Origin: Owenia fusiformis
Taxonomy: Eukaryota; Annelida; Polychaeta; Sabellida; Oweniidae
Length of the DNA: 64,000 nucleotides
NCBI GenBank assembly: GCA_903813345.2
Contig: CAIIXF020000004.1
Span: 662,513 to 726,512 of the forward strand
Direction: 5' to 3'
The notes below the pieces were generated by a model. It was not told where the DNA came from. It saw only the letters and a list, made by a program, of their open reading frames with translations, and ran no database searches. The first letter of the stretch is position 1; every line of letters begins with the position of its first letter. Both the position numbers and the translations under genes were made by a program. Positions 13,236-60,436 of the stretch are shown here, piece after piece.

Positions 13236-13241
13236 TTTATT
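13236..13241 (-). terminator. AATAAA overlapping the stop codon
   Basis: On the minus strand the end of the reading frame reads AAGAAATAAAAG, so the stop TAA lies inside a canonical AATAAA hexamer. Whether it is used is unknown. Use would place cleavage only 10-30 nt past the stop codon; other AATAAA copies lie about 470-490 bp downstream. Confidence 0.3.
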
Positions 13242-16200: not shown

Positions 16201-17815
16201 ATCTGCATCTTCATGGTCATCTTTTACATCATGAACTTCATCCCTAAGCTTGTTCTTATTTTTTCTAATCTGTTCTAAAATTTCTTTCTCCATTAAAGGA
16301 CTTACTGAATGATCTGTACTTGAAAAGCTATTTTTAGGAGGCAATTTGCGAATTTTTACAAAATCTGAATGTCTCTGATTTTTTGGTGACCTTTCGGGTG
16401 ATTTTGGTGGCAATGGGTGCTGTAAATTACTTTGAATTTTTTGTAATGTTGCTCTTTGTTGTTCACGAAAATTTGGACTTTTCGGTGAAACTGGTGATAG
16501 GGGTGATTTTTGCATAGATGTTGTGGTGGCGTGTGATTGTTGAAGAAAATGTGTGCTGTGGTCTATTCCACCAATGTACATTCGACGGTGAAGTGTATAC
16601 TCAATATCAGTGTCATCAACTGTTTCACTATCTTTAACATTTGATTTATTTGGTGTATCATATGATTTTTCAGTATCCTTTAATATTGATTTAAGTGGAA
16701 TTGGATTTGGTTTAGGCTTATCAGAAACCTGGTTTAAAGAATCATTTTCAACCACTGAAGAGACAGACATTTTGGAATCTTCAACAGTGTGTGAATTTGT
16801 TTCAGTTGTTGTATGTTCTATAGTGTTGGTTATTACATTGGATGTAGTTACTTCATTTATCACACTTGTTTCAGTCACAGATGCATTCTGACTTTCATGG
16901 CACACCACACTTTCAACATGACCCACCCCATCTTCATTGCGACTCACCACATGTTCACTGGTATTATCAGAGGCACTTTCAATATTATCAAACCTACTGA
17001 TCACATTCTCAAAGGTTTCATCAGCATCTGTTGATGATTCCTTTTTCAAGTTATTACCACGAGTGATGCTATCAACAGTATGATCATCCAAGTTACTATG
17101 ACTACCATCAGAGTTACTATGACTACCATCTATTTTATCATGACTTTCTACAGATTCAGAGAAAGTGTTTGCTAATTTCTCATCCCCGATAGATACTTTT
17201 TCTGTGATAGCATCAGGGGACGTAGGACTAGCATTCTCTGTTACCTTTAGAAGGTCATTCTCGGAAATATGCAAAACTGTAGAAAACACTTCCTGAGTGG
17301 AAGATCTCCGACCTTCCGCCAGATCATAAGAATCATGGGATATGTTGTCATCATTGTCATTAGCATTTTGATTGGCCGATGGGCCACTAGTATCGCAACT
17401 AAGGTTACTGGTGTTATAGGTTAGTTTATAATAATATTTAGACTCTGCACCTGATTGGTCCACTGCTGGGATATCGTGGTCCATCTGCTCTCTGATTGGC
17501 TCATCCTTCAACCCACCGTCCTCATCATCTCTAGGTGGTTTTGCTTCACTTTCCTCCTTGATATTTTCATTCTGATCAGCACCCTCAGAGGGCGCTGGTA
17601 TATTACCTGATTGGCTGCTATCATCATGAACTTCAGCTTTTTCCACCAATCGCGTTGAAGCAACTGAGGGCGTGTCTCTAGTCTCTTTCGGAGATTGTTC
17701 TAGAATGTGAGAACCACTTGATGTGCTGTTGTGCCCGTAATTGGAGTTAAGCGTACTTGTATTGGATTTGTTAGCACCATAAGACCGTGACGCTATTGAA
17801 CGTGCACTAGTTGAC
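13237..17815 (-). CDS. FERM gene exon 10: giant terminal exon, disordered tail
   Basis: An acceptor (TTTTAG, 17816-17817 on this strand) opens a 4579-bp exon entering at codon position 3 and continuing FA residues AFER into [11 protein letters not shown]. It encodes about 1525 residues and ends VVHKK-stop. The tail has little predicted order: Ser/Thr/Asp/Glu-rich tracts, a Pro-directed block with [12 protein letters not shown] and [11 protein letters not shown], acidic runs ([21 protein letters not shown]), and a nine-Ser run before DSDVDSEP, typical of casein kinase 2 targets. KSVQF (about residue 1127) fits the PP1-docking RVxF pattern. No DH, PH, PDZ or kinase domain is visible; a resemblance to the 4.1 C-terminal domain near TITKTNKN was considered but is too weak to claim. 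Such uninterrupted length is unusual for this family. Confidence 0.88.
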
Positions 17816-23800: not shown

Positions 23801-26800
23801 TCACCTCTCTGCGGAACGAGCCCGGGTACGTTCTGGCGATCTTTAATAAAATGAGCATTTTATTTTCAACAAAATGAAACAAAATCTCCTTCACAATATG
23901 CTAATAATAAAAAAGGTTTATGAATCTCAAACTATTCATGAGTTGTTTTTTACATTGAAACAACAAACATTAAATGTTAGCCAACGAGTTCTACCTTTAA
24001 GAACAACATTTGTATTTTTGAGTCCTTGTTTTTCGAACAATCATTTTATTTCATAGTAGCTTTAAGTGAACCATGGCTAACATTTAAAGAAGCCTGTTTA
24101 CATATTATTACCAGTTATAATTCTTTAAAGGCCCCATGAAATTTTAAACCACAAACAACTCAGACTTGATAATGAAATGACTTGATTCACGAATGTTATT
24201 TCTAAATAAATATACATAGGGCCTTTAATATTTTGTATAGACAAACAACCATATACATATATACATGTACGTATGTATACAATTATTTTATCAAGACAAA
24301 AATATCACATTGAAAACTTAATAAGACAAATTAGACACATATTCAGTTCTACTTTAAATGTCTCATACAAAGGATTTAATAACGAAAACTATCTGTTTAC
24401 ACACAAAAATATCTCTATTTGTAATAAAAACTCTATAATGTAACTTCATGCAGCAAAAATGATACATGATTTTTTATAAAAACTCTATTACGAAAGGGGC
24501 CATTTTGAAAATATCAATGTATATTTGAAAATATCAATGTATATCTGAAATTTCAACATTTCATTTGATTCCCAGAGTCAAATATATCCGTATTTAGTAT
24601 TTCACAAAATAATTTAAACCATAAATTAAACCAAAAGTCATAAGAAACTATAAGAATATGAAAGGTATTAAAGAGAATATTCAGATATGTACAATTATCC
24701 CACCCTAAGTGCTTTATATGATTGTATAATAGCATTGTATAACTGCAATATAAAACCAACACTCATCGTATACAACTCTTGAGAACGATATACAACTCCT
24801 GGATAGCGTATACAACTCCTGGATAGCGTATACAACTCCTGGGCAGCGTATACAACTCTTCGACTTGATATACAACTGCTGAATTTAGATTAACCTTTTA
24901 TTGATTAAAGATTAGGGTGGGATAATAAGATCATATAATGGTTGATTCTGTATATCGTTATACTCTCGTGAGTATATGATATATTCACTCGTTCCCTTCA
25001 GTCACTCGTGAATATATCATATACACACTTGAGTATAAACACGATATACGGAATCAACCATTATATAACCTCATAGTATCAAATACTTAACTGTACATAC
25101 ATGTATATATACAGTATATATATACAGTATATATTGATATTGGATAATCGTATACATGTACATGTATATCCAAACAAATCCAGTAGCTGACAAACAAATT
25201 CTTGATATAATTGTGACTATACATGGACATTTCCAAACTGATGAAGCCCAATAGTGGTTCATTTTGTACATACCTTTCAAAGGCAGGCCTTTTAACATAG
25301 TTCTCTCTTACATACTCTACTAGCTGCTTCTGTGTGCGACCACTGTACCTATAATAGTATATGTAATATATAATAGTATATATCTTTTAACATAGTTCTC
25401 CCGTACATACTCTACTAGCTGCTTCTGTGTGCGACCACTGTACCTATAATAGTATAAGAGCAAACTAGTAGTATTACTAGATATGCGTAACAAGTACATC
25501 AATCAAATGTCTTTGAAAGAACTTAAGAGTCCAGCAGTACACATGTAATAGTGCATAGTGCACATGTAATAGTGCACATGTAATAGTGCATAGTGCACAT
25601 GCAATAGTACACATGTAATAGTTAAACGGGTCTAAGTGCACATTCTGCAACCATACAATTTTGGGTATATAGGCACTTCATAAGAAATAGTGAAATAATT
25701 TCAGTACACATACTTCACCTTTATATAATAGTGAGACAATAATAAATGCAACATTTATAATTACAATAGGAAGGGAAGTTATGAACCTATGACAGCAAGA
25801 CAATTCAAAAAAAAATATAAAGTAGAATTTAAGGATCAACTTTATTTTATCAATCAAACTCCATGTATTACTTCATATACGCTACATATATGCTATGCAT
25901 ATCTCAAGCCTACAACTAGATGGAATTCCACCTACCTGAACGAAGATCCTCGACTGACAACACGAGTTCTATTTCTGGGCAGCTTTTTCACTATATGGCA
26001 TCGGAAGAAGGCGTGATGCTCTATACATTTCTTCCAAAAGTTTTTACACTCATTCCTTGTATCAAAGTAGAATTCAACAGTATCTTTATAATAGCCCTGC
26101 AAAGAGAAGTTACATATTGTACATGATAAAGCTACATATTATATACAACAAATCTACATATTGTATACAAGCAAGCTACATATTGTATACAATGACGCTA
26201 CATATTGTACATGATCAAAGTAGAATTCAACAATATCTTTATAATAGCCCTGCAAAGAGAAGTTACATATTGTACATGATGAAGCTACATATTGTATATA
26301 ATGAAGCTACATATTGTATATGATCAAAGTAGAATTCAACAATATCTTTATAATAGCCCTGCAAAGAGAAGTTATATATTGTATACAATGAAGCTACATA
26401 TTGTATACAAGCAAGCTACATATTGTATATGATCAAAGTAAAATTCAACAGCATGTTTATAAGAATAGCCCTGCAAAGATCAGTTACATATTGTACATGA
26501 TGAAGTTACATATTGTACAAAATGAAACTACATATTGTATATGATAAACCTACATATTGAACATGATGAAGCCACATATTGGATACATTGAAGCTACATA
26601 TTGTACATGATGAAACTACATACAGTATGTGATTAAAGTACAATTCAACAGTTTCTTTAAAATAGCCCTGCAAAGAGAAGCTATATATTGTACATGATGA
26701 AGTTACATATTGTATAAAATGAAGCTACATATTGTATACAATGAAGCTACATATTGTACATGATCAGTAGAATTCAACAGAATCTTTATAATAGCCCTGC

Positions 26801-35800: not shown

Positions 35801-38800
35801 TTCCTGTATAACAGCTCTAGGAACAGTGAAGGGTTTAGGCTTGCGTATTTCAGGGATTTGACTGCTACCTGCCAACACATGTTTGGGGAAGTCCTCATAT
35901 AGGTCTGTGGAGTACGCATATAAATCGTATATATCATTACATATGCTGATTGTCTTTTTATCACCAGTTCGACGTTTTGCTTTAAGCTCATCCGTTTGAT
36001 CCTGTCCCCTAATCTCTGGGGGACCATAGATATTTTTTAACACATCTGAGAGCTTATCACGGCACAAGGAAAACAATATGTCTCTAGTTTCCTCCAAAAG
36101 CTGTTCATCATAGTCATGAATGAGAGTTTCGATAACATCTTGTCGAGTATTACAGTCAATAGACTGCAAAATAATATCAATGGTGGTGTCCAAAGGGTTA
36201 ACTGATGCCATGGTGTTAAGGCATGATAAATGTTTGTTATTGTTTACACCAGCTTAATTGGGGTAGAAAAACTTAGTAATTAGTCAAATATGACCAAGTA
36301 AAAAAGGTCCTTATTAAGCAATATACAGTTTATCCAGCTGATATGGCCAATTAAGCTTCCAAAAATATGGCCTAATTTCTGATCAGCTCACAAAGATTCA
36401 AGAAAAACCATACCTTTTCCTTTCAAATACGCATTTTTGAGGCATAAATATTCCATAAAGACAGTATATCCAGAAACCCGGAGGTTTTATGATTGTCCTC
36501 ATGTACCAATATTTTACTAATGTGTTTTTACTAATGTGTAATCCGCTAAAAAGTAGGAGCTCCAAAAAACTTGACTTCATCTACCTTTGACCTTTGATCA
36601 TCATCTGGTATTGAGTAAACATGAAGTTATAAAAGAAGTGCATATGTACTGGTATTGAGTAAACATGAAGTTATAAAGGAAGTGCATATGTACTGGTATT
36701 GAGTAAACATGAAGTTATAAAGGAAGTGCATATGTACTGGTATTGAGTAAACATGAAGTTATAAAGGAAGTGCATATGTACTGGTTTTGAGTAAACATAC
36801 AGTTAAACAGCAAGTGCACATGTACTGGCACAGCATAAACACCATAATTGAGCAAGTACATATGTAGTATTAGAGAGTAAACACACAGCTAGAACAAGTG
36901 CACATGTACTGGTACTGAGGACATATAAGGTTATAGAGGAAGTGCATATGCACTGGTACTGAGTTGACATTGAGTTATAGAGCAAGTGCATTTATACTGG
37001 CATAAAGAATATATCAAAGCACAAATGGCAAAAAATAATTATTAGCCATTGATTAACAATACTAAACATACAGTTATAGATCAGAGTAAGTGCATTTGCA
37101 CTTGTACAAAGTAAACATGCACTGAAATATCAAGTACACTTGTACTGAGTAAGCGAACACTTATATATTGTTACCTCAAAAAAATTTAATTATACTATTT
37201 TTTCGTTATGTATACTTAATTTAAGTTAATGCATTTTTTTGTTTCAGTGACGAAAGAAAGCAGTTATCAAAATATTTTGAAAATTGCCCATGAGGTGTCT
37301 TTTTGTCTTTTTCATGTCAATGTGTAATACTGTATCTGAAACATTTGAAATAAAGTGAATTGAATTGACAAAAAAATCAAATGGTACCAAAATGAGCAAA
37401 ATGAGTTCAACCATGGTACAAGTAAGTATCTGTGATATGCTGTGGAATAACTACAGGGAATAGCATGCACACAAAAGAGGTTGCCCAATCCCACAATTCA
37501 TCCTGAATATATATGTTTATGAGATGGGGAACTTATCTTTGTTACTGACCTGGGAGACATTAATAGAAACTTTGTAAAGTTAGGAATTCGTAAAAGTCCA
37601 TTGTTCTTACTGTGATATCTTTGTATCCATGGTTATGACAATTGTTTTATTAACTCAAAACTTTACGCCGATTCTGTTCTTATTTCTATGAATTTCTGTA
37701 CAATATACCCTAGATAATGTCATTTATAACTAAACAAGCCATCTGAAGCAAAGAGCAAAATCATTTCATCCGTAAAGCATTGAAATCTGGACTGCGGTAA
37801 CTATGTTCATGCTACTAAGCATATAATCCCACAAATAACCCAATGCCAACATGTAACGAAACATATATCAATACTTACATAGCCTTCTGGATGAAGTTTT
37901 ATCAGGAACTTTTTCCGTTTGAAGCTAAGTTTGCGTATTTTTGCCCAAGAGAAGGTGTTTATCTTGGTTTGGTTTTGAAAGACTAGTACTCCCATATGGG
38001 CCACAGCTAATGTCAGTGGGACACCTTCATGGTCCTGCAAAATAAAGGTACAGTCAAGCCACTTCTATTCTCTGTATGAAACACTGGCATGTAGCGATTA
38101 TAGCGGTCCTGTCTTGGCTTATTGAATTGTTACGAAGTTACGTATGCGGTGCGGAAGTTAGAGAGCAAATGACCATCATTTCAATGTAATAGTTTATGCA
38201 GGAAAATTGAGATTAGGCCATTGGAGTATTTGTTTCATGCATTTGTAAAACGTTACCCACTCATAGGTCATACTTATCGTTAAACCAATAACTCAAATAT
38301 ATGCCCTTGTACACCGATCACCTGTTGAAATTAATACAGGCCGATTTCAACAAATGTAAACGGCGATATATTTAAAATCGTATTCAAGCATGACCACGTC
38401 CCAACTTCTTTTGTTTTCTTTACAACTAAGCTATGACTGCAGTCTATTCAGTGTTGCGTATCGAACCTTGTTTATTATAAAAATAGTGCAACAACAAGCA
38501 GAATTCACACATTTACCTTATACTTATTCTCAACTGAAGACATTGAATTTATCTCTTAGGTTTTACATTATAAATATCTTAACATGCAGAATACGAAAAT
38601 AGAGGCTTAGGCCCAACTTTGTATGAATTTTATGAGAATAATCTGATTTTAGAGAAATGAAAAGAAAAATGTCCACACACTACACAAAATATTTATGGTT
38701 CCCCGGGAATACGTATGTGCTGCTTGTATATTAGAATCGTATTCCAGTTACAGAAAGAAGTACATATCATGCTAAACTATATACAACAGTTATGCACTTG

Positions 38801-47800: not shown

Positions 47801-50800
47801 TTTCAAACTTATGGTACTATTTCAACCCTATTCACTTGACAACATTACCCACATACCAGTATTTTTACCTTTGCTTCGTGCATCCTTATGCCGTAAAGTT
47901 CAACTTTCCTGGCAGTATCTAATACTGTTTCAACCCTATTCACTTGACAACATTACCCACATGCCAGTATTTTTACCTTTGCTTTGTGCATCCTTATGCC
48001 GTAAAGTTCAACTTTCCTATCAGTATCTAATACTATTTCAACCCTATTCACTTGACAACATTACCCACATGCCAGTATTTTTACCTTTGCTTTGTGCATC
48101 CTTATGCCGTAAAGTTCAACTTTCCTAGCAGTATCTAATACTATTTCAACCCTATTCACTTGACAACATCACCCACATGCCAGTATTTATACCTTTGCTT
48201 CGTGCATCCTTATGCCGTAAAGTTCAACTTTCCTAGCAGTATCTAATACTATTTCAACCCTATTCACTTGACAACATTACCCACATGCCAGTATTTTTAC
48301 CTTTGCTTTGTGCATCCTTATGCCGTAAAGTTCAACTTTCCTAGCAGTATCTAATACTATTTCAACCCTATTCACTTGACAACATCACCCACATGCCAGT
48401 ATTTATACCTTTGCTTCGTGCATCCTTATGCCGTAAAGTTCAACTTTCCTAGCAGTATCTAACAGGTTGAAGTCTGCCTCTGCTGGACTCTGACCTCTGC
48501 AAGAAATATAACACATGGTTGAGACAAATGCATGGTAATATTGCCATTATTGATATTTTGAACCTTTTGTGTGGAAATATATATGACTGATGTCTGGATA
48601 CCTGGATGTCTAATATACAGTGCAGACACACATAATGTGGCCCATGTCAGCTTTTTTTGACATGATTAAGAGTCATATATGTGTCGTGGAAATTTAAACT
48701 AAATGGTACGCAGAATAAGAATTTAAAATCGCAAAAGAACAGAAATTTCAGAACGATTCAGTTTTGAACATTTGACTTTTGAATGGAATGATTCTGGTTA
48801 AGTTCTGGCACAAATACAGAGTTGTCATTGAAGAAGACAAAGTACTATACAGTGAAGATGACCTATTCAGCTTTTTATAAAATAGCCTGTATTGACAGTC
48901 AAACTTGGTTAATCAAAGCAACTTAGCAACTCCGAATGTACCACAAAACAGAATACATACAGATACTCTAGGAGCACAGAATGATCAAATCTCTAATAAC
49001 TGTGCCATCTTTAACATATATAGGGTGATGCAAAAATCCAACCCCTATTTTTGTGTCACCCCGAATGGCATACTCCTAAGCAGGTATCCAAAATCCACCT
49101 CCTTCCCCCTGCTATAACCAATTTGGAAGCGCCCGATTAAACTGAATCATGTGATCTAATTATGCGCAATGACTTATACATGATTTCTGTTGCAGTGTTG
49201 CGACAGCCAATCAGATCGCGAGTTCTTAATTGGGGAAATGCTTATCTCAGGGGGTAAAAAGAAAAAATATATTCTGGATTTTGAAGCCCTGTGATCGGAG
49301 GATGGTAACGCTGTATGTACTAATTGTACTTACATGTGACCCTGATGATATTCCATTATTTTCAGCTCCAGGTCCTCAGACTGGTTTTTGAAGAATTTAA
49401 AATTAGATAAATATGTATGGTCCACATACTCTTCCTCTAGGAAGTCTCCGAGCTCAGCTGAAAATATATGAAAGTTTATATTTTTGTTTTTACTACAAAA
49501 CAAATAATAAAAATAGGCATTTGCTACCTATAGCAGAAATGCATTCAGATACATTCACACCAAAAATTATTCAATAACTTTAAAGACTAAAATCAAATTA
49601 TTTTGCTCAATTCATCTCTGTTATACGATCGTACATTTAGTTTGCATAATGCTCTAAAGAGTAAAAGCGAAATAGTTTGCTTATAATGTACTGAATCCGG
49701 TGTTTGTTTAAATCTTACATTGGGGACAGTGGAATGGATGGATATAGTGTATAGTCTGAATCGAGCCAGGGAGCAAACAGATATCACAAACGACTGATAA
49801 TTTCAGTTTCAATTGTGTGGGTAATAAAGCCTTGCATTGCAAAACATATCTTTAGCCAAAAATTCAAAATTTCATATATCAGACTGTGAGTAAACAGGGT
49901 GTGAATCAGACCAATAACAACAATGAATGTGCAAGTATTTATTTAAATTCTAAACCCACCTTGTACAATATAAGATGCCAGTAATGCTGCAGTGTTCTCT
50001 GAACATGGAATATCCCCTGATGCCAAATCACGCTTTACTTGGAGGGCAAATAAATACCTACAAAACATCCATTAATTAACAATTATTTATCAATCATTTA
50101 CCCATTAAAATATTCAAAAATATTCCAATATTTCTAAATATTTAAATATTTAAGTATTTAAATCTAAACCTTTGGATTTACAATTCAAATCTATAGGTGC
50201 ATATAATCATGTGAAACAGATAGGCACTGTTCTACAGTGCTGAATAAAAATAAATCAGATCAATCAATAAAATTAGATGTTTTTTCTATTTGGTCCATGC
50301 ATTTTAATCAATGACAATAAAAAAATACTAATTAAAATCAGAACCTAGAATACATTGTATCAAAATCCTTGTAAATATATGTGGAATTGAATAATGTATT
50401 CTAATCCAAAGTATTCTGCTTGTGATACATTATAAAGCTAGAAAACTAAAATGACATGTAAAATATGTCAGCCATGCTTTACAAGTTGGAATTGCTGGAT
50501 AAATACCAAAGTCCTACATCACTCAATAAAAGGGTCTCTGCCGTCACTGGCACATCTGGTCTCTGGCCAGGTGCGGAATCACTATCAAGAGATTTCGGAG
50601 ACATAATTTTTATAAACTGGTGGCTGTGAGTGTCCTTTATGACCTTGCGCCCTGGTAAAAAACTCTAATGTCATTTGATACCACTCTGGAGTCCCAGAGG
50701 AATCAAATTTTGATTTTCTTACTCCGGGTTATAAAAATTGGAACATTGGCCCTACAACCCTTATGCTCCAACTACATTAGAGATCGGATTTTGAAGTGTT

Positions 50801-53800
50801 CAGTAAATCTCACCCTACGTTCATTGACAAGGATCATTTCTTCTCTGGATACAGTTTTAGTATCTTTCTGGCTCCATATCCATGTCCATTTTATATTTTT
50901 ATAACTATTTTATCATGTTCAGTAGGTTTTGTCATCATAGAATTTCATTTAAAGGGTTCCGATTAGCATCCCGTATAAAAACAATATGGCGGCTCCAGGC
51001 GAATCAACTGGATCAGTCCATTTTTAAGAAATAAGGGGAGTTCTGTAAAATCCAGTTTATTGAAATTGTCTTTGAGATAAAGTAATCCGTTTATAATGAT
51101 TTTGAAAACGTTATCCAAAGAGTGATTGCGTTCAAAGAATACATGTACAACAGCCAATATAAATCTTTGTATTAGAAACCGGTTTGTCTTGCTTTGTTTC
51201 ATTTGTAGGATATTTCATATGCCAAGCTGTGTGCTATTACGTTATGGGGAAATTTTTCCTTATTATACACAAATAGAAGATCCTGAAACTTCACCCAAAA
51301 AGTATGGAATTGATTTGTCAAAATAAAAATCACCCTTTTATAAATGTGTGACAATATATAATATACTTATGCTATATAACAGTTAGAGGTGTTGACACAA
51401 CGACATCGAACCTGTGAACCCATGAGTGTTATTCCGGGATCGGGCCTTTTATACTAAACGGTGAGCAACACCAGAAACGAGCGTTCGATTTGCTAAACGA
51501 TATGCGTCACCCTTTAAGTGTTTAAAGTAATTTTGCAGACAATTTTACATATGCAAAGGAGTGAATATTTGGAGATTTTTCATGACACACCCGATGTATA
51601 TTTTAGGCTGGTAACAAGCCACAAATAAATTTTCAACCATATTTTTTATTTTTTAATTCAAGAAATAAACAATGTTTCTTTATGTAAATTTTGGTAGATG
51701 TAGCTGTACTAATGAATAAGTGATTATCAATTGAAAAATGTTCCAATTGTTATTGGCCCACCCTATAAATATCAATAAAAATGACAAGCTCCAAATTTAA
51801 AAGAATTGTAACATTGGTTACCTAGTGTACTCCTCTTCCAGAAGGCCAGGGTCTGGAGTGTAAAATTTGACAGCAAATCTAAACCTTGGGTCTTTTGCAG
51901 AGACTTGTTTTAAAAGTGGTTTTTCATGGTCCAGCCAACACTAAAAGAGAGACACATTTTGATAAGATAAGGCGGTCATGACATTTATCAAAAAGATTGT
52001 CAATTATAGCAATCAGCATTCTACAGAATTTTACGATATTGTCATTATTACATTGTAGAAAATAAGATTCAAAGACATATAAAATAATAAAAAATTACTT
52101 ATGCTGATAGTAGCTGGTAGTAACAGATACTTCTTGATCATATTTGGAAATATTAATTTCTTCACCCAGAATTGTCTTTTATATTATACCGAGTTACCAG
52201 AATACAATATTGTCAAATAAAATTAAAATCAAAAAACCTTCCCTATCTTTTTATTCGTTGTGATTTTTCATGAAATTCTAAAATTACCCGACATTCAAGG
52301 TCAGCTGACATTTCCATCACCATGGTAATTCTGTATAACTGCTCTCCCCCCTCCCCCTTAATCCTTCAAGTGCAGTACTTACACATATTCCTTTCTCATC
52401 CAGGTATTCTAAGTCAAAGTAGTCCGCCTCAAGAAGTTGCAATCTGTGGGACACTTCATTGTATAGAATAACACCCTGACATTTTTGCTGGAAATATGTA
52501 TATAAAACAACATGTATTATTTGAAGTTGTAATCTTTGGGACACTTCATTGTATAGAATAACACCCTGACATTTTTGCTGGAAATATATATAAAAAAACA
52601 TGTATTATTTGAATCGAATCTTTGAATATCAAGATCTACCTCCCCTTTGTAAATTCAGACTTTATAGGCGGTATCACATCAATTAAATATTGTGTCAAAT
52701 ATATACGTATTTGAATTTGACATTTTGTGAGTCAAGCACAGTCTGAGTTCAATTAAAAAAACATATATAAAAAATATTAATAATGTGCCGTCCAAGATTT
52801 GAACCCAGGCTGAGTTGATAAATAAATAATTTGATGAAAATGCAGAAATTTAAGAGAATGGCCAGATATTTAAAAAAATCATTCCAAACGGATGATTCTT
52901 GACAAAAAGCCTGAATTGCGCGAGTGGGTGTTATCGGTGGGACTCAAACCCACAATTCTTTTCTGTGCTGGAGAAATATCTTACCATTAGATTATGAAGT
53001 ATCCATAATGCTTAGCCAACCTAGAATTCTATTTAGAAAATGTACTATTTGTTAGAATCAACTTTCTGATGTAACATTTGTTGCAATCATGTGGTCAAAA
53101 ATTTCATCATACTCCATTATTATCTTTAACATGTTTAATGCAATCAGATTGTTTATAAACCTACTTATGAAGATGAACTTTTCAATAAATACAAATGATA
53201 AGAAAAATACTTATAATATAGGAAATTTGATAAAAAGCAAAATGAGCATTCTACAAAGTGACTGATATTTTAAAAAACAAAAACAAATATACATGAATTT
53301 AAAATACCCTCTCTGAGATTTGAACATTGTCTGTCAAACATAAGTGTCTAAAAATACGAAATTCGGGAGATTGAGAGAAAAAGACAGATACCGACTCAAT
53401 GTGTAAATCATTGAGAATAAAAAGGCTGGATTGCGAAAGTAGAAAGTATTGGATGGAATCGAACCAACATCTATTCTTCCCGCAAGAATAATCATACCAT
53501 TAGACTACGATGGATCCACTTTACTAGGGCCAACCTAGAAGACTATTCTACGAAGAAAATCTACTTTGTTGGAATGAACTTTATGTTGCAATACTCATCC
53601 CGATCATGTGATCTGCAATTTCCTCATTTTCTGTCGTCATATTTACCATTCAAAAAATCAGTTTATTATAATTTTCATCTACCACGGATCATTCTACTTG
53701 AAATTGAAAAAAAAAGAATCTAATATGCCCCATCTGAGATTTGAACCTTGTCTGACGACCAACATACATACATAAATAAACATCTAAAAATAAAAAATTT

Positions 53801-59800: not shown

Positions 59801-60436
59801 CCTCATATTTCCTGTTTTGGTCAAAATATCTCTGTGTAACTGTTTCACATATACAAAGAAAGAGGAGGGGGGGGGGGTAGAATGCAATGATATGATATAA
59901 ACCTAAAGATTTCAATAGACTAAACACACTGAAGGTCTACCCATATCCCAAAAAAACAAGGCAAAAATTGAAAACTGATGCTTTGCTATGAAGCAATATG
60001 ATTCCATACTTACGGGAACATTGAAGTCCCGCCCCTCCCCCCTAAACAAGATTGGAGCATGTGTGGACACAAAGAGTATTAATCATATCCTTATAGGCAC
60101 ATTGAAGTCCCGCCCCTCCCCCTAAACAAGACTGGAGCATGTGTGGACACAAAGACTATTATTCATATCCTTATAGGCACATTGAAGTCCCGCCCCTCCC
60201 CCTAAACAAGACTGGAGCATGTGTGGACACAAAGACTATTATTCATATCCTTATATGAACATTGAAGGTCGGCCCCTCCCCCATTATAAGGGCAGTACAC
60301 GTGAAGATAATTATTCAAAAATACTTACAGGCACATTGAATGTCTGCACCTGATCATCCAACATATAGACCTTGACACCCATCATCTTCCCTTTAGGCGT
60401 GCGTCCAGCCTGATCAGCTGACATATTGTAGTTCTC
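13237..60436 (-). CDS. FARP/FRMD7-like FERM-domain protein, ten-exon gene model
   Basis: I joined ten exons by GT..AG sites and matching phases, giving one open frame of about 1866 codons from the first Met of E1. Residues about 14-107 form FERM lobe F1, 107-210 lobe F2, 211-300 lobe F3, and 308-345 the FERM-adjacent segment with [15 protein letters not shown]. Lobe F3 contains [20 protein letters not shown], and the F2/F3 junction contains GQSPAEADF and [12 protein letters not shown]. These follow FARP1, FARP2 and FRMD7 more closely than band 4.1, EPB41L5 or PTPN3/4. FERM proteins of this group act under the plasma membrane; FARPs add a Rac/Cdc42 GEF (DH-PH-PH), which is absent here. FRMD7 also lacks it. 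GEF exons could lie beyond the left edge as an alternative 3' end. Exon-edge arrays accompany E1, E2, E6, E8 and E9. Confidence 0.85.
17816..18290. other. Intron 9, start of non-repetitive part
   Basis: Intron sequence next to the exon 10 acceptor. No other feature seen. Confidence 0.5.
18300..18640. repeat. 17-20 bp minisatellite, AACCAAATATGGTAGTAAC
   Basis: About 18 copies with variable spacers (AGTAAC, ATTAAC, AGAAGC) and some CCCAATATGG variants, inside intron 9. Confidence 0.93.
18650..19250. other. Intron 9, no feature seen
   Basis: AT-rich single-copy intron sequence. Confidence 0.5.
19262..20168. repeat. 36-37 bp satellite, ACAAGACAGAGTGCACTTTTGATCTG
   Basis: About 26 units. The left third (19262-19680) has shorter, diverged units without GATCTG. 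The right part (19690-20160) is nearly uniform, built from units ending in TTTCATATAC or TTCCATACAC. The homogenised right end suggests recent amplification there. Open frames in the array arise from the low-complexity unit. Confidence 0.95.
20170..20975. other. Intron 9, unclassified moderately complex sequence
   Basis: 20480-20940 is less AT-rich than its surroundings and carries two short minus-strand open frames (66 and 63 codons) with no recognisable domain. It may be a transposon fragment, but no ends were found. Confidence 0.35.
20980..21045. mobile_element. 66-bp palindromic MITE, TA-flanked
   Basis: TA at 20978-20979 and 21046-21047. Left end CAGGGTGGCCAAAAAACAGA; the right end on the other strand reads CAGAGTGACCCAAAAGCAGA. 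It is nearly all terminal inverted repeat, as in very short mariner-derived MITEs. Confidence 0.6.
21333..21920. mobile_element. About 590-bp MITE with 35-bp inverted ends
   Basis: The left end TTGCTAATTCCCTACTATCA continues CACCAAACTAGTTCT. The right end is its inverse, AGAACTAGTTTGGTGTGATAG followed by GGGGGGTTAGCAA. No coding capacity seen. No clear target duplication, so the superfamily is unassigned. Confidence 0.7.
22591..22657. mobile_element. 67-bp palindromic MITE, TA-flanked
   Basis: TA at 22589-22590 and 22658-22659. The left end CAGGGTGTCCATAAAGTGTC is mirrored on the right by GACTTTGTAGACACCCTG. CAGGGTGTCC ends are typical of mariner/IS630-type elements. Confidence 0.65.
22660..24530. 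other. Intron 9, mostly featureless
   Basis: AT-rich intron sequence with a G tract near 23353-23361. No gene or bounded mobile element recognised. Confidence 0.45.
24765..24880. repeat. 20-bp tandem repeat, CGTATACAACTCCTGGATAG
   Basis: About five copies of GTATACAACTCCTGGATAGC with variants (CTTGAGAACGA, CTTCGACTTGA). Confidence 0.88.
24933..25066. mobile_element. 134-bp foldback element
   Basis: ATATAATGGTTGATTC at the left is inverted as GAATCAACCATTATAT at the right, and the stem continues inward (TATATCGTTATACTC against GAGTATAAACACGATATA). It lies about 200 bp from the exon 9 donor. Confidence 0.7.
25274..25348 (-). CDS. FERM gene exon 9: FERM-adjacent segment
   Basis: Acceptor TATAG and donor GTATGT flank 75 bp, entering at codon position 3 and leaving after two bases. 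It encodes [17 protein letters not shown] and then VKRPAFE, the FA segment that follows FERM in FARP and FRMD7. The Ser in YSGRTQ-type motifs is a known regulatory phosphorylation site in FA-containing FERM proteins; this is family knowledge, not visible here. A 60-bp partial copy of the exon lies immediately upstream in the intron. Confidence 0.9.
25349..25470 (-). repeat. Partial tandem copy of exon 9 with its acceptor
   Basis: The copy's exon-like part is 25384-25443, 95 bp from the true exon, and includes the same acceptor context (CTATTATAG then GTACAGTGG). It matches the first 60 of 75 exon bases; the last 15 bases and the donor are missing. The only exon-body differences seen are AGA against CGG, both Arg, within VRENY. 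Splicing into this copy would not find its normal donor. Confidence 0.9.
25535..25625. repeat. Short tandem repeat, GCACATGTAATAGT
   Basis: Six or so copies of GTGCACATGTAATAGTGCAT-like units inside intron 8. Confidence 0.88.
25936..26096 (-). CDS. FERM gene exon 8: end of lobe F3 and start of FA
   Basis: Acceptor TTTGCAG and donor GTAGGT flank 161 bp, entering in phase 0 and leaving after two bases. The product starts [20 protein letters not shown], then [12 protein letters not shown], which is the FERM F3 alpha-helix signature (family form WK.CVEHHTFFR), and ends VVSRGSSF leading into exon 9. Upstream, in intron 7, five partial copies of its first about 35 bases are dispersed through a minisatellite. 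Confidence 0.93.
26097..26810 (-). repeat. Minisatellite carrying five partial copies of exon 8 start
   Basis: About 22-bp units (GAAGCTACATATTGTACATG and variants) are interrupted five times by a segment copied from the exon 8 start with its acceptor. Exon-like segments begin at about 26214, 26323, 26432, 26631 and 26763. Each spans roughly 35 coding bases and retains CTCTTTGCAG or a close variant as acceptor (the third reads GATCTTTGCAG). Copies 3 and 4 are the most diverged. None has a donor. Confidence 0.92.
26811..27510. other. Intron 7, no gene seen
   Basis: AT-rich. 27308-27408 carries three CCAATCAGA or TCTGATTGG motifs in opposite orientations, possibly a small decayed inverted repeat. 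Confidence 0.4.
27515..28086. mobile_element. TTAA-flanked MITE, copy 1 (piggyBac-like)
   Basis: TTAA at 27511-27514 and 28087-28090. The ends are AGGGT and its inverse ACCCT. It is near-identical to 50953-51513 over most of its length, with small indels. TTAA duplications are typical of piggyBac-class elements; the very short inverted repeat makes the class provisional. A minus-strand open frame (27525-27719) containing [18 protein letters not shown] is shared with copy 2 but has no known domain. Confidence 0.75.
28140..28350. repeat. Second block of the TACATATTGTATACAATGAAGC minisatellite
   Basis: About eight copies of the same unit family that surrounds exon 8, here without exon-derived segments, about 1.3 kb further into intron 7. 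Confidence 0.9.
28351..29280. other. Intron 7; short GC-richer patch with ATGGCG motifs
   Basis: Mostly AT-rich, with TATGATGACATCA repeats at 28835-28905. 29018-29075 is GC-richer and contains AAAATGGCGTC and CCAAGATGGCGGGCGG, the latter matching a YY1 core. No exon of a second gene could be built from it. Confidence 0.4.
29280..29395. repeat. Tandem repeat, GCATCATGGGAGTTTTA
   Basis: Five diverged copies of TTGCATCATGGGAGTTTTAA in intron 7. Confidence 0.85.
29396..30182. other. Intron 7, no feature seen
   Basis: AT-rich sequence with only short unrecognised open frames. Confidence 0.45.
30183..30435. repeat. 21-bp minisatellite, GTACTGGAACCTGGTACACGA
   Basis: About nine copies, the central five almost identical, with diverged flanking copies after a short interruption at 30361-30395. 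Confidence 0.93.
30960..31068. repeat. 44-bp minisatellite, left part (split by LINE)
   Basis: About two and a half units, containing GTACTGGTATTGAGTAAACA then TGAAGTTATAAAGGAAGTGC. The array stops at GTACT, where the LINE poly(T) begins, and resumes on the other side at 36606. Confidence 0.93.
31191..34778 (-). CDS. LINE ORF2: endonuclease and reverse transcriptase
   Basis: 1195 codons. The N-terminal APE-like endonuclease has [11 protein letters not shown] (about 37), [14 protein letters not shown] (about 187) and SDHLPIKV (about 275), covering the metal-binding and catalytic residues expected. The RT follows, with [13 protein letters not shown] and the catalytic SFADDTVLI (about 780). A C-terminal CKMC...H...C finger-like motif lies at about 1113-1130. 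No RNase H domain seen. ORF2's ATG overlaps ORF1's TGA in ATGA, suggesting translation by termination-reinitiation. No stop or frameshift, so the copy is young and may be active. Confidence 0.93.
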   Translation of the reverse strand: MMALTTLSLIVLTSSLFLAPSTFNKHSNYQNMKTADNLKITAWNANGFNASSPYLNSLLDKTDILCLTEHWLYPGSLNKLYDIHPDFTCVSESSTTLDPLNQGHIIGNGGIAIFWKKSLNQNIIHVTKYKSDRYMVIKILRPGIHHLYVICVYLPHVRCKNDNFLEVLDRLEVIINDLQGDGDTVLMGDFNADFGKNIGTRGAGSISANGVNLLNMCKRSNLMPVDMLPMCQGPNYTFFRDYTGQSYIDHCILSERLVSKCDYIMVLENDPLNFSDHLPIKVKLLIQEGIILKNQQTSHSTKIAWKKVSEGNLRDYTEELESLINQYLNPLMSSLDEHISNNVLLEECFDMFTQILHYAANKHLPKSKYCRHLKPYWSPILKELVKCKKKSWNEWVKHGKPRTRGNMFWDNYKNAKRSFRREFRKAQQVYENECQLEIDKLEELSLNQFWYLVKKRKPRVNSIPAIKSDDGTILTDVLEVTNEWRTYFKDLMSAHGNHDNLYDQQFFDMVNTSVDRMEKESKLMNDLSFTEPIDVNEMTKMCSKMSNNKAPGWDLVSSEHLSKGGLPVIQVLVTLFNHIIILEHIPRSFKLGVILPLFKGGNKDCLNKDHHRGITLLTTFMKLFERLMLNRSQKCPRREIKSDMQGVGVEKCSSVHTSLLTREAISYGLENGNDVIVTSLDIKKAFDSVWHNGLLFKLFNQGINGKLWRLIRCSYRGFTCSVKITNDSPLSDPFLVERGVHQGGILSMELYSLYTNELLNIIQESKAGCQINNIIVSCPSFADDTVLIAYHAKSMQKMLDIVYDYSVKWRFQYHPDKCQAIVFSNKKHVNKPILSLGDRTIEVNDTVQHLGLPLANKSHISHVENSLSKGRRAINAYIGVSSTVNNPTNPLTVSRLYWTCCVPSITYGMELLPLNESELECLESGHRGIAKKIQGIPKTTSNAASTSILGWHSLTSNIVISKLMLLWQLLSLPFPSIYKKLIILRLLSATYEDLNKFSPIGNCIKMAKAYQLDEMVYEMFNGHVYSKLQWKNIVKSKVHLFELRNWQIECILSRKLPLFRIVTHDIQPIIWWKVAKLDPRILKCCRTVVKLLLGEGNIMINVNRWSNGKISVLCKMCYKEPETLSHMILDCEGHDALRSNILEIVHNIFKPAQNYPKEMILGAIFGAGEIFDVEEYKQIAVYIHKMYINRPESGL
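34775..36211 (-). CDS. LINE ORF1: nucleic-acid-binding protein
   Basis: 478 codons, immediately upstream of ORF2 with a 4-base overlap. Residues about 140-180 form a probable coiled coil ([20 protein letters not shown]). The middle is basic and proline-rich with [16 protein letters not shown]. The C-terminal 100 residues form an ordered-looking segment ([12 protein letters not shown], later [10 protein letters not shown] and a [10 protein letters not shown] motif) of the sort found in ORF1 of several invertebrate CR1-like LINEs. No CCHC zinc knuckle seen. It probably packages element RNA, by analogy with other ORF1 proteins. Confidence 0.85.
   Translation of the reverse strand: MASVNPLDTTIDIILQSIDCNTRQDVIETLIHDYDEQLLEETRDILFSLCRDKLSDVLKNIYGPPEIRGQDQTDELKAKRRTGDKKTISICNDIYDLYAYSTDLYEDFPKHVLAGSSQIPEIRKPKPFTVPRAVIQEHGLKIIELSEKICELNSKILQMQKSHDQEIKVLNERMKSVMAIKESSLSSKPSDPKKSTNVPIHVPPAPATLIEKKSSSKDPPARDVPTKANPSLAVPPNDICRKDIPSGIVISPRVSRGRGRGRHASAPEPRAPGKETSKKPNATQRARNPTQNPIEVIVSDPVADGETWSDVVRRKRPKNPPPRLDLRSTASKPTIRGLSGANSSTRFLRGVKSESGITLYLENIEICEGETNEDIKHQVSAHAKNQNIRIMQSYVVHNKVSQYRVGCKIIVPKSNVERAMSPSAWPSPVQCREWVPKGRRNNAPRLDDIDYDNIYHASKEYTSYIDWRDSCVEECYEE
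36212..36606 (-). promoter_or_regulatory. LINE 5' leader / internal promoter region
   Basis: The extreme 5' end reads GATGATCAAAGGTCAAAGGT, containing a TCF/LEF-type ATCAAAGG and a DR1-like AGGTCAAAGGT. LINEs of this kind carry internal promoters, so these are candidate binding sites; function is inferred. Confidence 0.4.
36607..37165. repeat. 44-bp minisatellite, right part
   Basis: Four near-identical units to about 36790, then diverged units of the same family (CAAGTGCACATGTACTGGCA) to about 37165. They continue the array interrupted by the LINE. Confidence 0.92.
37166..37878. other. Intron 7 next to the exon 7 donor
   Basis: AT-rich with no gene or bounded repeat seen. Confidence 0.5.
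37879..38034 (-). CDS. FERM gene exon 7: FERM lobe F3
   Basis: Acceptor TTTTGCAG and donor GTAAGT flank 156 bp, phase 0 at both ends. It encodes [20 protein letters not shown], then [20 protein letters not shown] and LIKLHPEGY. The basic [13 protein letters not shown] strand is a hallmark of FARP/FRMD7 F3 lobes. No exon-edge copies flank this exon. Confidence 0.95.
38035..38788. other. Intron 6, no feature seen
   Basis: Mixed-composition intron sequence with only short unrecognised open frames. Confidence 0.45.
38789..38922. mobile_element. Foldback element, 134 bp, outer left
   Basis: GTTATGCACTTGGAGGTTTT and then GGATACAGGGAATATCCCGA at the left are inverted at the right (TCGGGATATTCCCTGTATCC, then AAAACCTCCAATTGCATAAC). 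A diverged relative lies at 45416-45553, on the far side of the nested inverted-repeat region. Confidence 0.8.
39255..39300. other. Perfect 10-bp hairpin
   Basis: GCGGGCAGAT and ATCTGCCCGC are separated by 7 bases near 39260-39286. It is a GC-rich stem in an AT-rich region, next to the outer inverted-repeat arm. Confidence 0.6.
39570..39788 (-). CDS. Hypothetical 72-aa open frame at the edge of an inverted arm
   Basis: The frame starts [12 protein letters not shown], has a hydrophobic stretch ([17 protein letters not shown]) and ends [12 protein letters not shown]-stop. Composition looks more protein-like than neighbouring frames. It begins inside the left long arm but runs past it, so the mirror copy on the right encodes only its first residues. 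It could be a captured exon fragment or chance; no family recognised. Confidence 0.25.
   Translation of the reverse strand: MVSIRPEEILPRVTIAYGVLAMTCGAVMPWFMDFCYFRLKTRLSVNIAVSFGKFVLDHLIPEDSDDDFNYGI
39752..42032. mobile_element. Long-TIR element: 470-bp inverted arms, 1.34-kb loop
   Basis: 39752-40222 and 41562-42032 are inverse copies with few differences. They share, for example, CTCTTCGGGACGTATCGAAA, GGGGACCAAAACGCC (inverse on the left) and GACTCGGCGGGGCG. The loop between 40223 and 41561 has no recognised gene. Close arm identity implies a recent origin or gene conversion. Confidence 0.85.
42258..43102. mobile_element. 845-bp MITE with TA duplication
   Basis: TA at 42256-42257 and 43103-43104. 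The left end AGGGAACATGGGGCAAAGCG and the inverted right end GGGGAACATGGGGCAAAACG match over about 24 bases. The motif GGGGCAAAACGGCCCA recurs inside (near 42453, 42474 and, inverted, 42723 and 43080). Removing the element restores GGATATAAGTGATATTTTT, also present (inverted) near 42161-42180. No transposase seen. Confidence 0.8.
43330..45185 (-). pseudogene. Decayed CR1/jockey-like LINE, 5'-truncated
   Basis: Minus-strand RT: 44353-44997 and about 180 bases upstream read in one frame, with [55 protein letters not shown] and the catalytic FADDTNL. The region after the RT continues in other frames (43612-44307: [23 protein letters not shown]), implying two frameshifts between about 44300 and 44370. 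The 3' tail is a (TTGAA)n-type repeat near 43336-43360, typical of LINEs that end in short tandem repeats rather than poly(A). No endonuclease domain remains. Confidence 0.9.
45214..45320. repeat. Palindromic array of CCATCGAATATCAC
   Basis: Three direct copies of AAACCATCGAATATCA are followed by two inverted copies (GTGATATTCGATGGTTTC), forming a stem of about 50 bp. The same module occurs at 39403-39443. Confidence 0.85.
45416..45553. mobile_element. Foldback element, outer right
   Basis: A diverged relative of 38789-38922. It shares GGAGGTTTTGGATAC and GTTATG/CATAAC ends, but its stem is more eroded. Confidence 0.65.
45654..45720. repeat. Short tandem repeat, GAAGCGGGAAGATA
   Basis: Three copies of GAAGCGGGAAGATA(C/T)GC(A/C)CC, with one shortened. 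Confidence 0.75.
45918..47095. mobile_element. About 1.18-kb element with subterminal CAGTTGTCCGAAACC repeats
   Basis: The left end holds five tandem 15-16 bp modules beginning CCAGTTGTCCGAAACCCAG. The right end (about 47010-47095) holds the inverse modules (GGGTTTCGGACAACTGG). Flanks carry GGGGTCAAT on the left and GGTGTCAAT on the right, a possible imperfect target duplication. The interior has no gene. It is probably a non-autonomous DNA transposon. Confidence 0.7.
47096..47805. other. Intron 6, no feature seen
   Basis: Ordinary AT-rich intron sequence between the mobile element and the 108-bp array. Confidence 0.45.
47806..48408 (-). repeat. 108-bp array made of exon 6 3' end plus donor and intron start
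   Basis: Five copies precede the true exon 6 end in plus coordinates, with exon-like borders at 47869, 47977, 48085, 48193 and 48301, exactly 108 bp apart and ending at the real border 48409. Each holds 54 coding bases ([14 protein letters not shown](E/K)AK) and a GT donor context (GTAAAA or GTATAA). The real copy and the 48193 copy share two variants (GTATAA donor, CACGAAGCA) and CATCACCC, so dimers of 216 bp have been exchanged. No acceptor is present in the unit. Confidence 0.96.
48409..48496 (-). CDS. FERM gene exon 6: end of lobe F2
   Basis: Acceptor TTCTTGCAG and donor GTATAA flank 88 bp, entering at codon position 3 and leaving in phase 0. It encodes [20 protein letters not shown] and YGIRMHEAK, the conserved last helix of F2 leading to F3. 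The donor GTATAA is weaker than the GTAAGT donors of E1, E2, E5 and E7, and five decoy copies follow it in the intron. Confidence 0.94.
48497..49333. other. Intron 5
   Basis: No gene. 49019-49063 is a short near-palindrome (TAGGGTGATGCAAAAAT against TTTTTGTGTCACCCC), probably a decayed mariner-type MITE. Confidence 0.5.
49334..49457 (-). CDS. FERM gene exon 5: lobe F2
   Basis: Acceptor TTTTCAG and donor GTAAGT flank 124 bp with two split codons. It encodes [20 protein letters not shown] and then [18 protein letters not shown]. The (A)ELGDF motif, completed with Ala from exon 4, and the EYHQGHIGQSPAE junction follow the FARP order. Confidence 0.93.
49458..49959. other. Intron 4
   Basis: AT-rich 502-bp intron with no further feature. 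Confidence 0.7.
49960..50057 (-). CDS. FERM gene exon 4: lobe F2 start
   Basis: Acceptor TTTTGTAG and donor GTGGGT flank 98 bp. It encodes [20 protein letters not shown] and [12 protein letters not shown], the F2 opening helices (family form Y.F.LQ.K.DL..G.L.C....A..L..Y..Q). It starts with a G completing an Arg codon from exon 3 and ends with a G completing Ala into exon 5. Confidence 0.94.
50058..50948. other. Intron 3, left of MITE copy 2
   Basis: AT-rich to 50450. 50515-50900 is less AT-rich and looks like an unclassified dispersed repeat fragment. No gene seen. Confidence 0.4.
50953..51513. mobile_element. TTAA-flanked MITE, copy 2 (piggyBac-like)
   Basis: TTAA at 50949-50952 and 51514-51517, ends AGGGT/ACCCT. 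It matches 27515-28086 closely. The shared minus-strand frame is longer here (50963-51202) and contains [18 protein letters not shown] and [13 protein letters not shown]. Both copies carry AATATGGCGGCTCC, a YY1-like core, about 30 bp from the left end. Confidence 0.78.
51518..51821. other. Intron 3, right part with MITE fragment
   Basis: Ends with GTTATTGGCCCACCCTATA near 51749-51767, related to the right end of the 9298-9477 element. No gene seen. Confidence 0.45.
51822..51940 (-). CDS. FERM gene exon 3: end of lobe F1
   Basis: Acceptor CTCTTTTAG and donor GTAACC flank 119 bp, entering in phase 0 and leaving after two bases. It encodes [20 protein letters not shown], then [22 protein letters not shown]...KQ and VKFY.PDP...EE.TR are standard F1/F2 FERM signatures. 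Confidence 0.94.
51941..52382. other. Intron 2
   Basis: 442-bp intron with no further feature. Confidence 0.7.
52383..52487 (-). CDS. FERM gene exon 2: lobe F1
   Basis: Acceptor ATTTCCAG and donor GTAAGT flank 105 bp, phase 0 at both ends. It encodes [20 protein letters not shown] and [15 protein letters not shown]. The L.E.DYF.LE pattern is the FERM F1 signature. A partial copy of its first 55 bases with the acceptor lies 90 bp upstream. Confidence 0.92.
52488..52590 (-). repeat. Partial tandem copy of exon 2 with its acceptor
   Basis: The exon-like segment 52523-52577 is a 90-bp-offset duplicate of the first 55 bases of exon 2 plus the acceptor ATTTCCAG. It differs by His to Gln and one silent Leu change. 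The rest of the exon and the donor are absent; the copy joins intron sequence AAATAATACATG. Confidence 0.93.
52800..54020 (-). repeat. Three tandem about 475-bp units with tRNA-Pro-like cores
   Basis: Each unit has a segment with GAGATTTGAACCTTGTCTG or a close variant, then AAAAGGCTGGAT(T/C)GCG, then a tRNA-like core on the minus strand (52931-53004, about 53449-53517, 53881-53952), then CCAACCTAGAA-like sequence. Copies are well diverged. This may be a tandemly repeated tRNA-derived SINE or an old tRNA cluster. Confidence 0.75.
53881..53952 (-). pseudogene. tRNA-Pro(AGG)-like sequence
   Basis: On the minus strand it reads GTAGTCTAATGGTATGATT (D arm / A box), an ATTCT stem around a CTAGGGT loop (anticodon AGG), and GTGGGTTCGATTCCCAC, a perfect T arm / B box. 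Only the inner three pairs of the acceptor stem form, so it is probably not a functional tRNA. The two neighbouring copies have looser anticodon loops. Confidence 0.55.
54021..55590. other. Intron 1, mostly featureless
   Basis: AT-rich. 55139-55268 carries a two-copy tandem duplication (TAGAAACTCATAGAAGGTGG against TGGAAACTCATAGAATGTGG). No gene seen. Confidence 0.45.
55632..56017. mobile_element. 386-bp near-perfect palindrome
   Basis: TACGATTTTTCTTTTTTCCT at the left is inverted as AGGAAAAAAGAAAAATCGTA at the right, and the arms continue about 170 bp inward (CAGAAGACGACAGAATCGTC against the inverse near 55878). Flanks carry a direct GTTCGTTT..TTTTGGTAAC repeat (55591-55610 and 56030-56044), a possible long target duplication. 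It is a foldback MITE with no gene. Confidence 0.8.
56050..57240. other. Intron 1, no feature seen
   Basis: AT-rich intron with unrecognised short minus-strand frames (56445-56666, 56916-57206). Confidence 0.4.
57290..57520. repeat. Two-copy 153-bp spaced duplication
   Basis: GTATTCCAAGGGGTGGTACA, continuing to ACCATTTTATCAA, occurs at about 57296-57360 and 57449-57515 with few differences. Confidence 0.88.
57521..58440. other. Intron 1; short GGTTGGTRCACTCA repeat
   Basis: No gene. 58025-58108 carries four loose copies of GTTGGTGCACTCA-like sequence. Confidence 0.4.
58440..58660. repeat. Second copy of a dispersed repeat
   Basis: Homologous to about 5017-5125: CATTTTCTGTCATTTCTATA, TCTAGAGTGTTG and a CATATCAAAA-like tail align in the same orientation. 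Family unknown. Confidence 0.6.
58755..58950. mobile_element. About 195-bp MITE with CAGGCC ends and G/C hairpin
   Basis: The left end CAGGCCCGTAGGCAGGATT is inverted at the right (CCTGGCAACAGGCCTG). A run of 10 G (58901-58910) and a run of 12 C (58920-58932) flank TTCCGATTGAA, able to form a strong stem. CTTGT on both flanks is a possible short duplication. Related to widespread invertebrate CAGG-ended MITEs, perhaps hAT-derived. Confidence 0.6.
58951..60000. other. Intron 1, no feature seen
   Basis: AT-rich with a G tract near 59868-59877. No gene recognised. Confidence 0.45.
60006..60328 (-). repeat. 80-bp array related to exon 1 3' end and donor
   Basis: Four units lie downstream of exon 1 in transcription order. 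Borders aligned with the real donor (60329) fall at about 60014, 60095, 60175 and 60255. Each has ACATTGAA next to GGCAC or GGAAC, matching the last coding bases (TTCAATGTGCC), and TTATTCATAT-like intron sequence. The outermost unit keeps an intact GTAAGT; the others read TATAAG. Homology on the coding side is short (about 15-20 bases), so this case is less certain than exon 6. Confidence 0.7.
60329..60436 (-). CDS. FERM gene exon 1 (first coding exon)
   Basis: Acceptor-like CCTATTAG precedes GAGAACTACAAT ATG (Met at 60424-60422), and a strong GTAAGT donor closes the exon. From that Met it encodes [20 protein letters not shown] and [12 protein letters not shown]. The VKVYMLDD....F.VP strand is the F1 opening seen in FARPs (family form IKIQMLDD...F.VP). 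I chose this Met because it precedes the domain by about the usual distance. The acceptor upstream implies a further 5' exon, so an earlier start is possible. Confidence 0.85.

Follow-up and report, generated by a model that had tools for sequence, protein, structure and literature searches.

The FARP-like gene and the arrays at its exon edges

In this study, we examined a stretch of 64,000 nt of the Owenia genome (C4:662513-726512, here called the window; the assembly holds 498,259,871 bases in 525 contigs). Nine exons of a minus-strand gene are placed there from 60424 down to 25274, and a long tenth exon probably starts at 17815 (Table 1). When joined, exons E1 to E9 give an open protein with FERM_N, FERM_M, FERM_C and FA domains, and the best matches of this translation are the solved FERM domains of FARP2 and FARP1 (E 3.3e-109 for FARP2). 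We call the gene FARP-like, a provisional label taken from this domain match. The open frame of the probable E10 has no Pfam match. A possible splice acceptor lies upstream of E1 at 60436, the position given as the outer limit in the original prediction; the E1 coordinates used here start at the start codon. The window also contains, within 31191-36253 on the minus strand, the endonuclease and reverse transcriptase frames of a LINE-like element, which is flanked on both sides by one 44-base repeat (30967-31069 and 36605-37000), and a second reverse-transcriptase open frame, belonging to another element, is found at 44353-45186.

Table 1. Exons of the FARP-like gene and the tandem arrays at their edges, in window positions
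Feature	Position	Strand	Remarks
Exon E1	60329..60424	-	from its start codon
Exon E2	52383..52487	-	
Exon E3	51822..51940	-	edge copies absent
Exon E4	49960..50057	-	edge copies absent
Exon E5	49334..49457	-	edge copies absent
Exon E6	48409..48496	-	
Exon E7	37879..38034	-	edge copies absent
Exon E8	25936..26096	-	
Exon E9	25274..25348	-	
Probable exon E10	13237..17815	-	long open frame; acceptor without copies
E1 array	60014..60340	-	donor side; ~80-base units; 12 exon bases and donor common to copies
E2 array	52433..52624	-	acceptor side; period 90, 2.2 copies
E6 array	47815..48462	-	donor side; period 108, 6 copies, 97% matches
E8 array	26061..26808	-	acceptor side; exon-edge copies interleaved with 22-base intron minisatellite
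E9 array	25289..25474	-	acceptor side; period 95, 2 copies

It had been claimed from the sequence that five exons of this gene carry tandem copies of one of their own edges, on the donor side for E1 and E6 and on the acceptor side for E2, E8 and E9, and that these copies stop inside the exon and never contain both splice sites. Our analysis confirms this for all five arrays of the window, although the case of E1 is weak. In each of the five exons a single edge has its splice site copied in tandem, and its copies, all situated on the intron side, end within the exon; a unit with both splice sites, as in whole-exon duplication, was seen in none of them. Because the unit spans one edge, the copies are without the second splice site. 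The claim that E3, E4, E5, E7 and E10 have no such arrays was likewise upheld, as the edges of E3, E4, E5 and E7 and the acceptor of E10 score zero for local copies. Altogether this holds for 13 of the 18 tested edges of E1 to E9, a set that includes the start-codon side of E1, which is not a splice site, and the possible E1 acceptor at 60436 has no copies either. When the window was shuffled within 40-base blocks, no score of at least 14 arose at the tested positions, which were one in three of those taken in the real window.

The five arrays differ in their make-up. The E6 unit comprises at least the last 54 exon bases, the donor and the adjoining intron, and the functional edge is accompanied by five copies, all with GT and at a spacing of exactly 108 bases. 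Variants alternate across four successive edges of this array, the pattern expected if double units were exchanged unequally. A genome search with the E6 unit, which skips very common words and was confined to this one assembly, returned six matches, all of them within the window array, and no second locus. At E2 the acceptor and exon start have one upstream copy at 52577, with AG and 94% identical over the compared stretch, and at E9 one upstream copy at 25443, 97% identical over the compared stretch, in which 60 of the 75 exon bases are repeated. The E8 acceptor has five upstream copies, one of them displaced by a small indel. The 22-base repeat that is interleaved with them (26107-26808) is also arrayed about 1.4 kb away, at 28148-28356, where no exon material was seen; this minisatellite may be an intron repeat that was later joined with the E8 edge into a higher-order unit. 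The E1 array is the weakest of the five, its copies having so few exon bases in common. Copies of its donor are listed at 60175, 60095 and 60014, and a fourth was recognised by eye near 60254. Here GT is limited to the functional edge and to the outermost copy, both of which keep it within a GTAAGT, while the interior copies (two listed and the one seen by eye) have lost this motif and read AT.

Tandem arrays are error-prone in assemblies, and the arrays might for this reason be artefacts. We find this barely credible, since the copies at E6 differ from one another with alternating variants, the arrays have diverged to unequal degrees (at E8 and E6 the matches are 71-97%) and 19 further stretches of the genome have such copies.

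Exon edges elsewhere in the genome

These further stretches come from two samples of exons taken by HMM matching. The first consists of matches to myosin, kinesin and tyrosine phosphatase (93 stretches, 217 exons), hand-picked, most of them being short matches free of stops and matches lying close together. The second consists of HECT, kinase and FERM genes (73 exons), and for this sample a prediction of 3-6% positive edges was written down before the sequences were fetched. In total 290 of 585 matches were used (217 of 335 and 73 of 250), chosen by hand from the HMM tables and not at random. Left out by choice were a myosin cluster at C9:37986009-37994334 (12 matches), provisionally regarded as whole-exon copies, 17 of the 18 matches of a kinesin array, and 17 HECT-like places of equal score on many contigs. 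To assign edges we used an approximate splice-site score, which resolved 197 donors and 253 acceptors of the 290 exons, and only these were counted, that is 450 edges (340 in the first and 110 in the second sample), or 448 after the removal of two. An edge was taken as positive when it had an edge-spanning copy on the same strand within 700 bases.

In the first sample 17 of 340 edges had an edge-spanning copy, of which 15 were upheld after the sequences had been read, and in the second sample 4 of 110 edges were positive, which is inside the predicted range. Combined, edge-spanning local copies are present at 19 of 448 resolved edges (4.2%), in 19 of 290 exons, with donors (9/196) and acceptors (10/252) both represented. 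The 19 positive edges come from 19 separate stretches, but some of them share a gene. Copies were found at mid-exon positions in 3 of 217 exons. The five cases had been presented as those of a single gene, but edge arrays are not peculiar to the FARP-like gene. The gene does have more of them than the sample, with 5/18 against 19/448 edges (P = 0.0013), or 5/19 when the E10 acceptor is added (P = 0.0017), both comparisons being post hoc.

The two edges removed were the acceptor of L036, where the HMM match had crossed a stop into an AT-rich repeat and the true edge lies downstream, and the donor of L072, where merely 4 exon bases are shared. With these two included, 13 of 77 arrays of the first sample would span an edge against 4.5 expected, and without them it is 11 of 77 against 5.0. 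L047 and L081 were kept although the automatic edge falls on a neighbouring copy of their own array, as was L034, a copy inside the kinesin array that may not be the functional exon. In L044, a string common to intron and exon was noticed by eye only.

Edge arrays compared with random placement

In a minisatellite-rich genome some arrays will land on exon edges by chance, and the crude rates would seem to allow for this. A local copy (score of at least 14) is present at 12.2% of window positions, against which 5 of 18 edges is unremarkable, and the crude copy rate at non-exon positions of the two samples, 6.0% (197/3,265) and 7.8% (51/653), is no lower than the 4.2% found for edges, although these figures include intronic copies that belong to edge arrays. 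We set the crude-coverage test in the window aside as non-decisive, because the length of an array inflates the control while each exon edge counts as one founding site only, and replaced it by a permutation in which each array is collapsed to a unit. If non-exon positions are weighted by inverse copy number, the founding density of the background is 1.6% and 1.4%, compared with 4.2% of edges. With arrays collapsed, three TRF arrays of the window lie on edges where 0.31 are expected (P = 0.0035); the E1 and E8 arrays fall outside the TRF overlap rule of this count, and the P value is post hoc because the window was chosen for the feature itself.

In the 133 stretches of the samples TRF reported 94 arrays, of which 15 span a resolved edge; L006, L043, L060 and L083 have edges with copies but are outside this overlap count. 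Random placement of single units predicts 5.6 such arrays, and none of 20,000 permutations reached 15; when exon interiors were barred from placement the expectation was 6.2 and 12 of 20,000 permutations reached the observed number. In these counts the excess is seen among long units. All 15 edge arrays have units of at least 30 bases, and in this class 15 of 43 arrays are on an edge against 5.4 expected (0/20,000), whereas for units below 30 bases there is no edge excess (0/51, with 0.75 expected), an edge array of ~22-base units at L043 being one of those outside the TRF overlap count. The median unit length is 92 for edge arrays and 23 for other arrays. Each sample by itself gave a similar picture, the first with 11/77 against 5.0 (139/20,000) and, for units of at least 30 bases, 11/35 against 4.4 (33/20,000), the second with 4/17 against 1.15 (393/20,000) and 4/8 against 1.0 (181/20,000). 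Without L034 the counts are 14/93 against 5.9 for all units (17/20,000) and 14/42 against 5.0 for units of at least 30 bases (4/20,000).

The original prediction had called for exon-edge arrays to be counted against shuffled borders. We carried out a count of this kind on the sample rather than genome-wide, sliding edges 60-600 bases into the intron in 28 slides, and the slid edges carried on average 4.1 arrays (maximum 12), or 3.5 (maximum 9) for units of at least 30 bases, so that the real edges exceed this control as well. Edge-spanning arrays are, as shown on a sample, 2.4 to 3.1 times commoner than random placement predicts. With 15 arrays observed, 5.4-6.2 expected and 0-12 of 20,000 permutations reaching the observed number, we regard chance as quite unlikely to be the explanation.

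A different way to arrive at an excess is longer visibility. If selection on the exon fixes one copy, arrays at edges might persist in recognisable form for longer than others, which is plausible in principle, chiefly for two-copy cases. Edge arrays are indeed more uniform over all units (median identity 95 against 86, P = 0.0075), but among units of at least 30 bases this contrast falls short of significance (95 against 91.5, P = 0.25). We had taken the youth of edge arrays as proof against such a bias, and this argument is withdrawn as the identity difference is lost in the long-unit class, which makes the bias somewhat likelier than we had first held. The excess itself, however, survives when arrays are limited to an identity of at least 90 (11/45 against 3.8, 4/20,000; with units of at least 30 bases 11/28 against 3.6, 5/20,000), and in many-copy arrays constraint on one copy should hardly affect the likeness of the others. 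We think it unlikely that persistence bias explains the arrays.

More weight has to be given to the idea that exon sequence itself, with its higher G+C content and complexity, is prone to long-unit duplication and that selection purges arrays in exon interiors, so that edges as such are not special. All 15 TRF edge arrays having long units, a G+C content of 42.5% in exons compared with 33.4% in array-free intron and the rarity of copies at mid-exon would all agree with this, while the units of intronic arrays, contrary to it, show no shift in G+C (0.321 against 0.334 in array-free intron). Proneness of exon sequence with purging of interior arrays fits the data equally as well as seeding at borders, and we consider it a substantial possibility, though not one that we would favour as the whole explanation.

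Splice sites in the copies

Over 24 arrays the splice dinucleotide, GT or AG, is intact in 118 of 129 copies. A first sign of preservation, with 118 intact where 101 were expected from flanks of up to 30 bases, was dropped because at the level of arrays the adjacent bases behave alike (0.964 for the splice dinucleotide against 0.941 for flanking bases, P = 0.31). In pooled copies the dinucleotide (0.953) is kept about as well as the adjacent exon bases (0.963) and better than intron bases 3-8 (0.885). Neither purging nor retention of decoy sites is clearly indicated.

These figures bear on the proposal that arrays are selected, repeated splice sites helping in the recognition of exons that lie beside long introns. 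It would suit this proposal that four of the five arrays of the FARP-like gene adjoin introns of 7.8-11.8 kb, as calculated from the exon coordinates, and that in the sample arrays are commoner at edges beyond which the stretch holds no other sampled exon (12/203 against 7/245). However, the latter contrast is not significant (P = 0.16), by array the splice dinucleotides are not better kept than adjacent bases, and in most E1 copies the GT is lost. We hold selection for repeated splice sites to be a very improbable cause.

A proposed model for exon-boundary minisatellites in Owenia

Taking these findings together, we think it probable that the edge arrays are exon-boundary minisatellites of the mirage type, which are spliced out with the intron and are two- to threefold over-represented at exon edges. 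According to this model, a local tandem duplication would first include one exon end together with its splice site and a part of the neighbouring intron. The unit would then expand and be partly homogenised like other minisatellites, a step that the copy patterns of the E6 and E1 arrays support. Splicing would use the site that adjoins the full exon body, and the copies would stay intronic; because of this use, they would be removed with the intron, the protein would be unchanged and the array, in spite of GT or AG that look intact, would be tolerated. In our sample, edge-spanning copies are present at about 4% of exon edges, with arrays at 2.4 to 3.1 times their random frequency, for which the simplest cause would be that founding is more frequent at or beside exons.

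Two explanations had been offered with the original prediction. That exon-intron borders are preferred seeds agrees with the excess over both the placement and the slid-edge controls, as obtained on a sample and not on the whole genome, while seeding as the cause would be a step beyond these counts. That partial copies are tolerated agrees with the anatomy of the arrays and with the scarcity of copies within exons, but it leaves the excess over introns unexplained. Border seeding, proneness of exon sequence with purging of interior arrays, and longer persistence could each contribute to the edge excess. It is possible, if somewhat doubtful, that borders are hot spots that found long-unit arrays, perhaps tied to transcription or splicing; introns would then grow from the edges of their own exons, and a large reserve of decoy splice sites in the genome could give rise to new introns or exon ends.

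Arrays of this anatomy are not without precedent, and the original report on mirages, for Adh, is said to date from 2002. In amphioxus, exon-boundary minisatellites have been described from single genes under the name 'mirages', and a like anatomy is reported in globin genes, where RT-PCR suggests normal splicing; the mechanism is regarded there as unclear, and the authors suggest that such arrays have a part in the gain of introns (PMC3087553). PGBD5 is reported as a further mirage case (PMC3902484). In their anatomy the Owenia arrays agree with mirages: the unit spans one exon-intron boundary, on the donor or the acceptor side, units measure from tens to about 160 bases and many GT and AG signals are kept in the copies. 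For mirages it has also been said that interior copies are homogenised and boundary copies excluded from this, and the E1 array, the one examined in this respect, would be in line with this, as its outer copy is less altered than the interior ones. For amphioxus genes normal splicing and length variation between haplotypes are reported, and copy number in mirages is described as varying between haplotypes or somatically, whereas the Owenia arrays are known from the sequence of one assembly; on the other hand, the Owenia case concerns an annelid, and its frequency was determined at 448 edges against a control for placement. The erythrocruorin linker domain, which is not known outside annelids, has three matches over the cut-off in this assembly.

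In whole-exon tandem duplication and in mutually exclusive exons, exon material is also repeated in tandem. The copies in the Owenia window differ from these in containing a single splice site and only a portion of the exon. In the potato RdRp gene, a tandem duplication across an intron-exon boundary is reported to have made a new intron (PMC4974935). There too the duplicated segment crosses one boundary, on the acceptor side, but it is a single duplication and the new intron has RNA support, whereas in Owenia the copies enlarge an existing intron. In human segmental duplications, internal tandem repeats with minisatellite units are located at exon-intron boundaries, with altered splicing; as far as the accessible text goes, these repeats, unlike those of Owenia, are associated with recent paralogs, alternative splicing and novel introns, and no comparison of founding rates at edges was seen in it (PMC2812944). 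Among annelids, intronic minisatellites have been described in earthworm metallothionein, with no mention of exon-edge copies in the accessible part of that account (PMC12783039). In a literature search that took in few subscription papers, we found no earlier annelid report of boundary arrays. What we describe is thus a known kind of structure, counted in a new lineage.

That about 4% of the exon edges sampled in an annelid have such copies, with a measurable excess over random placement, makes the pattern frequent outside cephalochordates, and the seeding of tandem arrays by exon edges becomes testable within one annotated genome. For annotation the arrays are a warning, as searches by homology will run into series of partial exons that are unlikely to be expressed.

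Three other groups of repeated matches were seen in the HMM tables. The kinesin array mentioned above (C2:23266359-23269174, part of it in L034) has 18 kinesin-domain matches in 159-base steps, one of them 158, and both inspected units combine an acceptor AG with a coding piece and a stop codon; judged by this layout, the units might serve as alternative terminal exons. The 12 myosin matches on C9 all cover roughly one segment of the myosin head over 8.3 kb and are possibly a cluster of mutually exclusive exons. The HECT-like segment, with a 161-residue open frame, recurs with equal score at 17 dispersed places on many contigs and probably sits within a mobile element.
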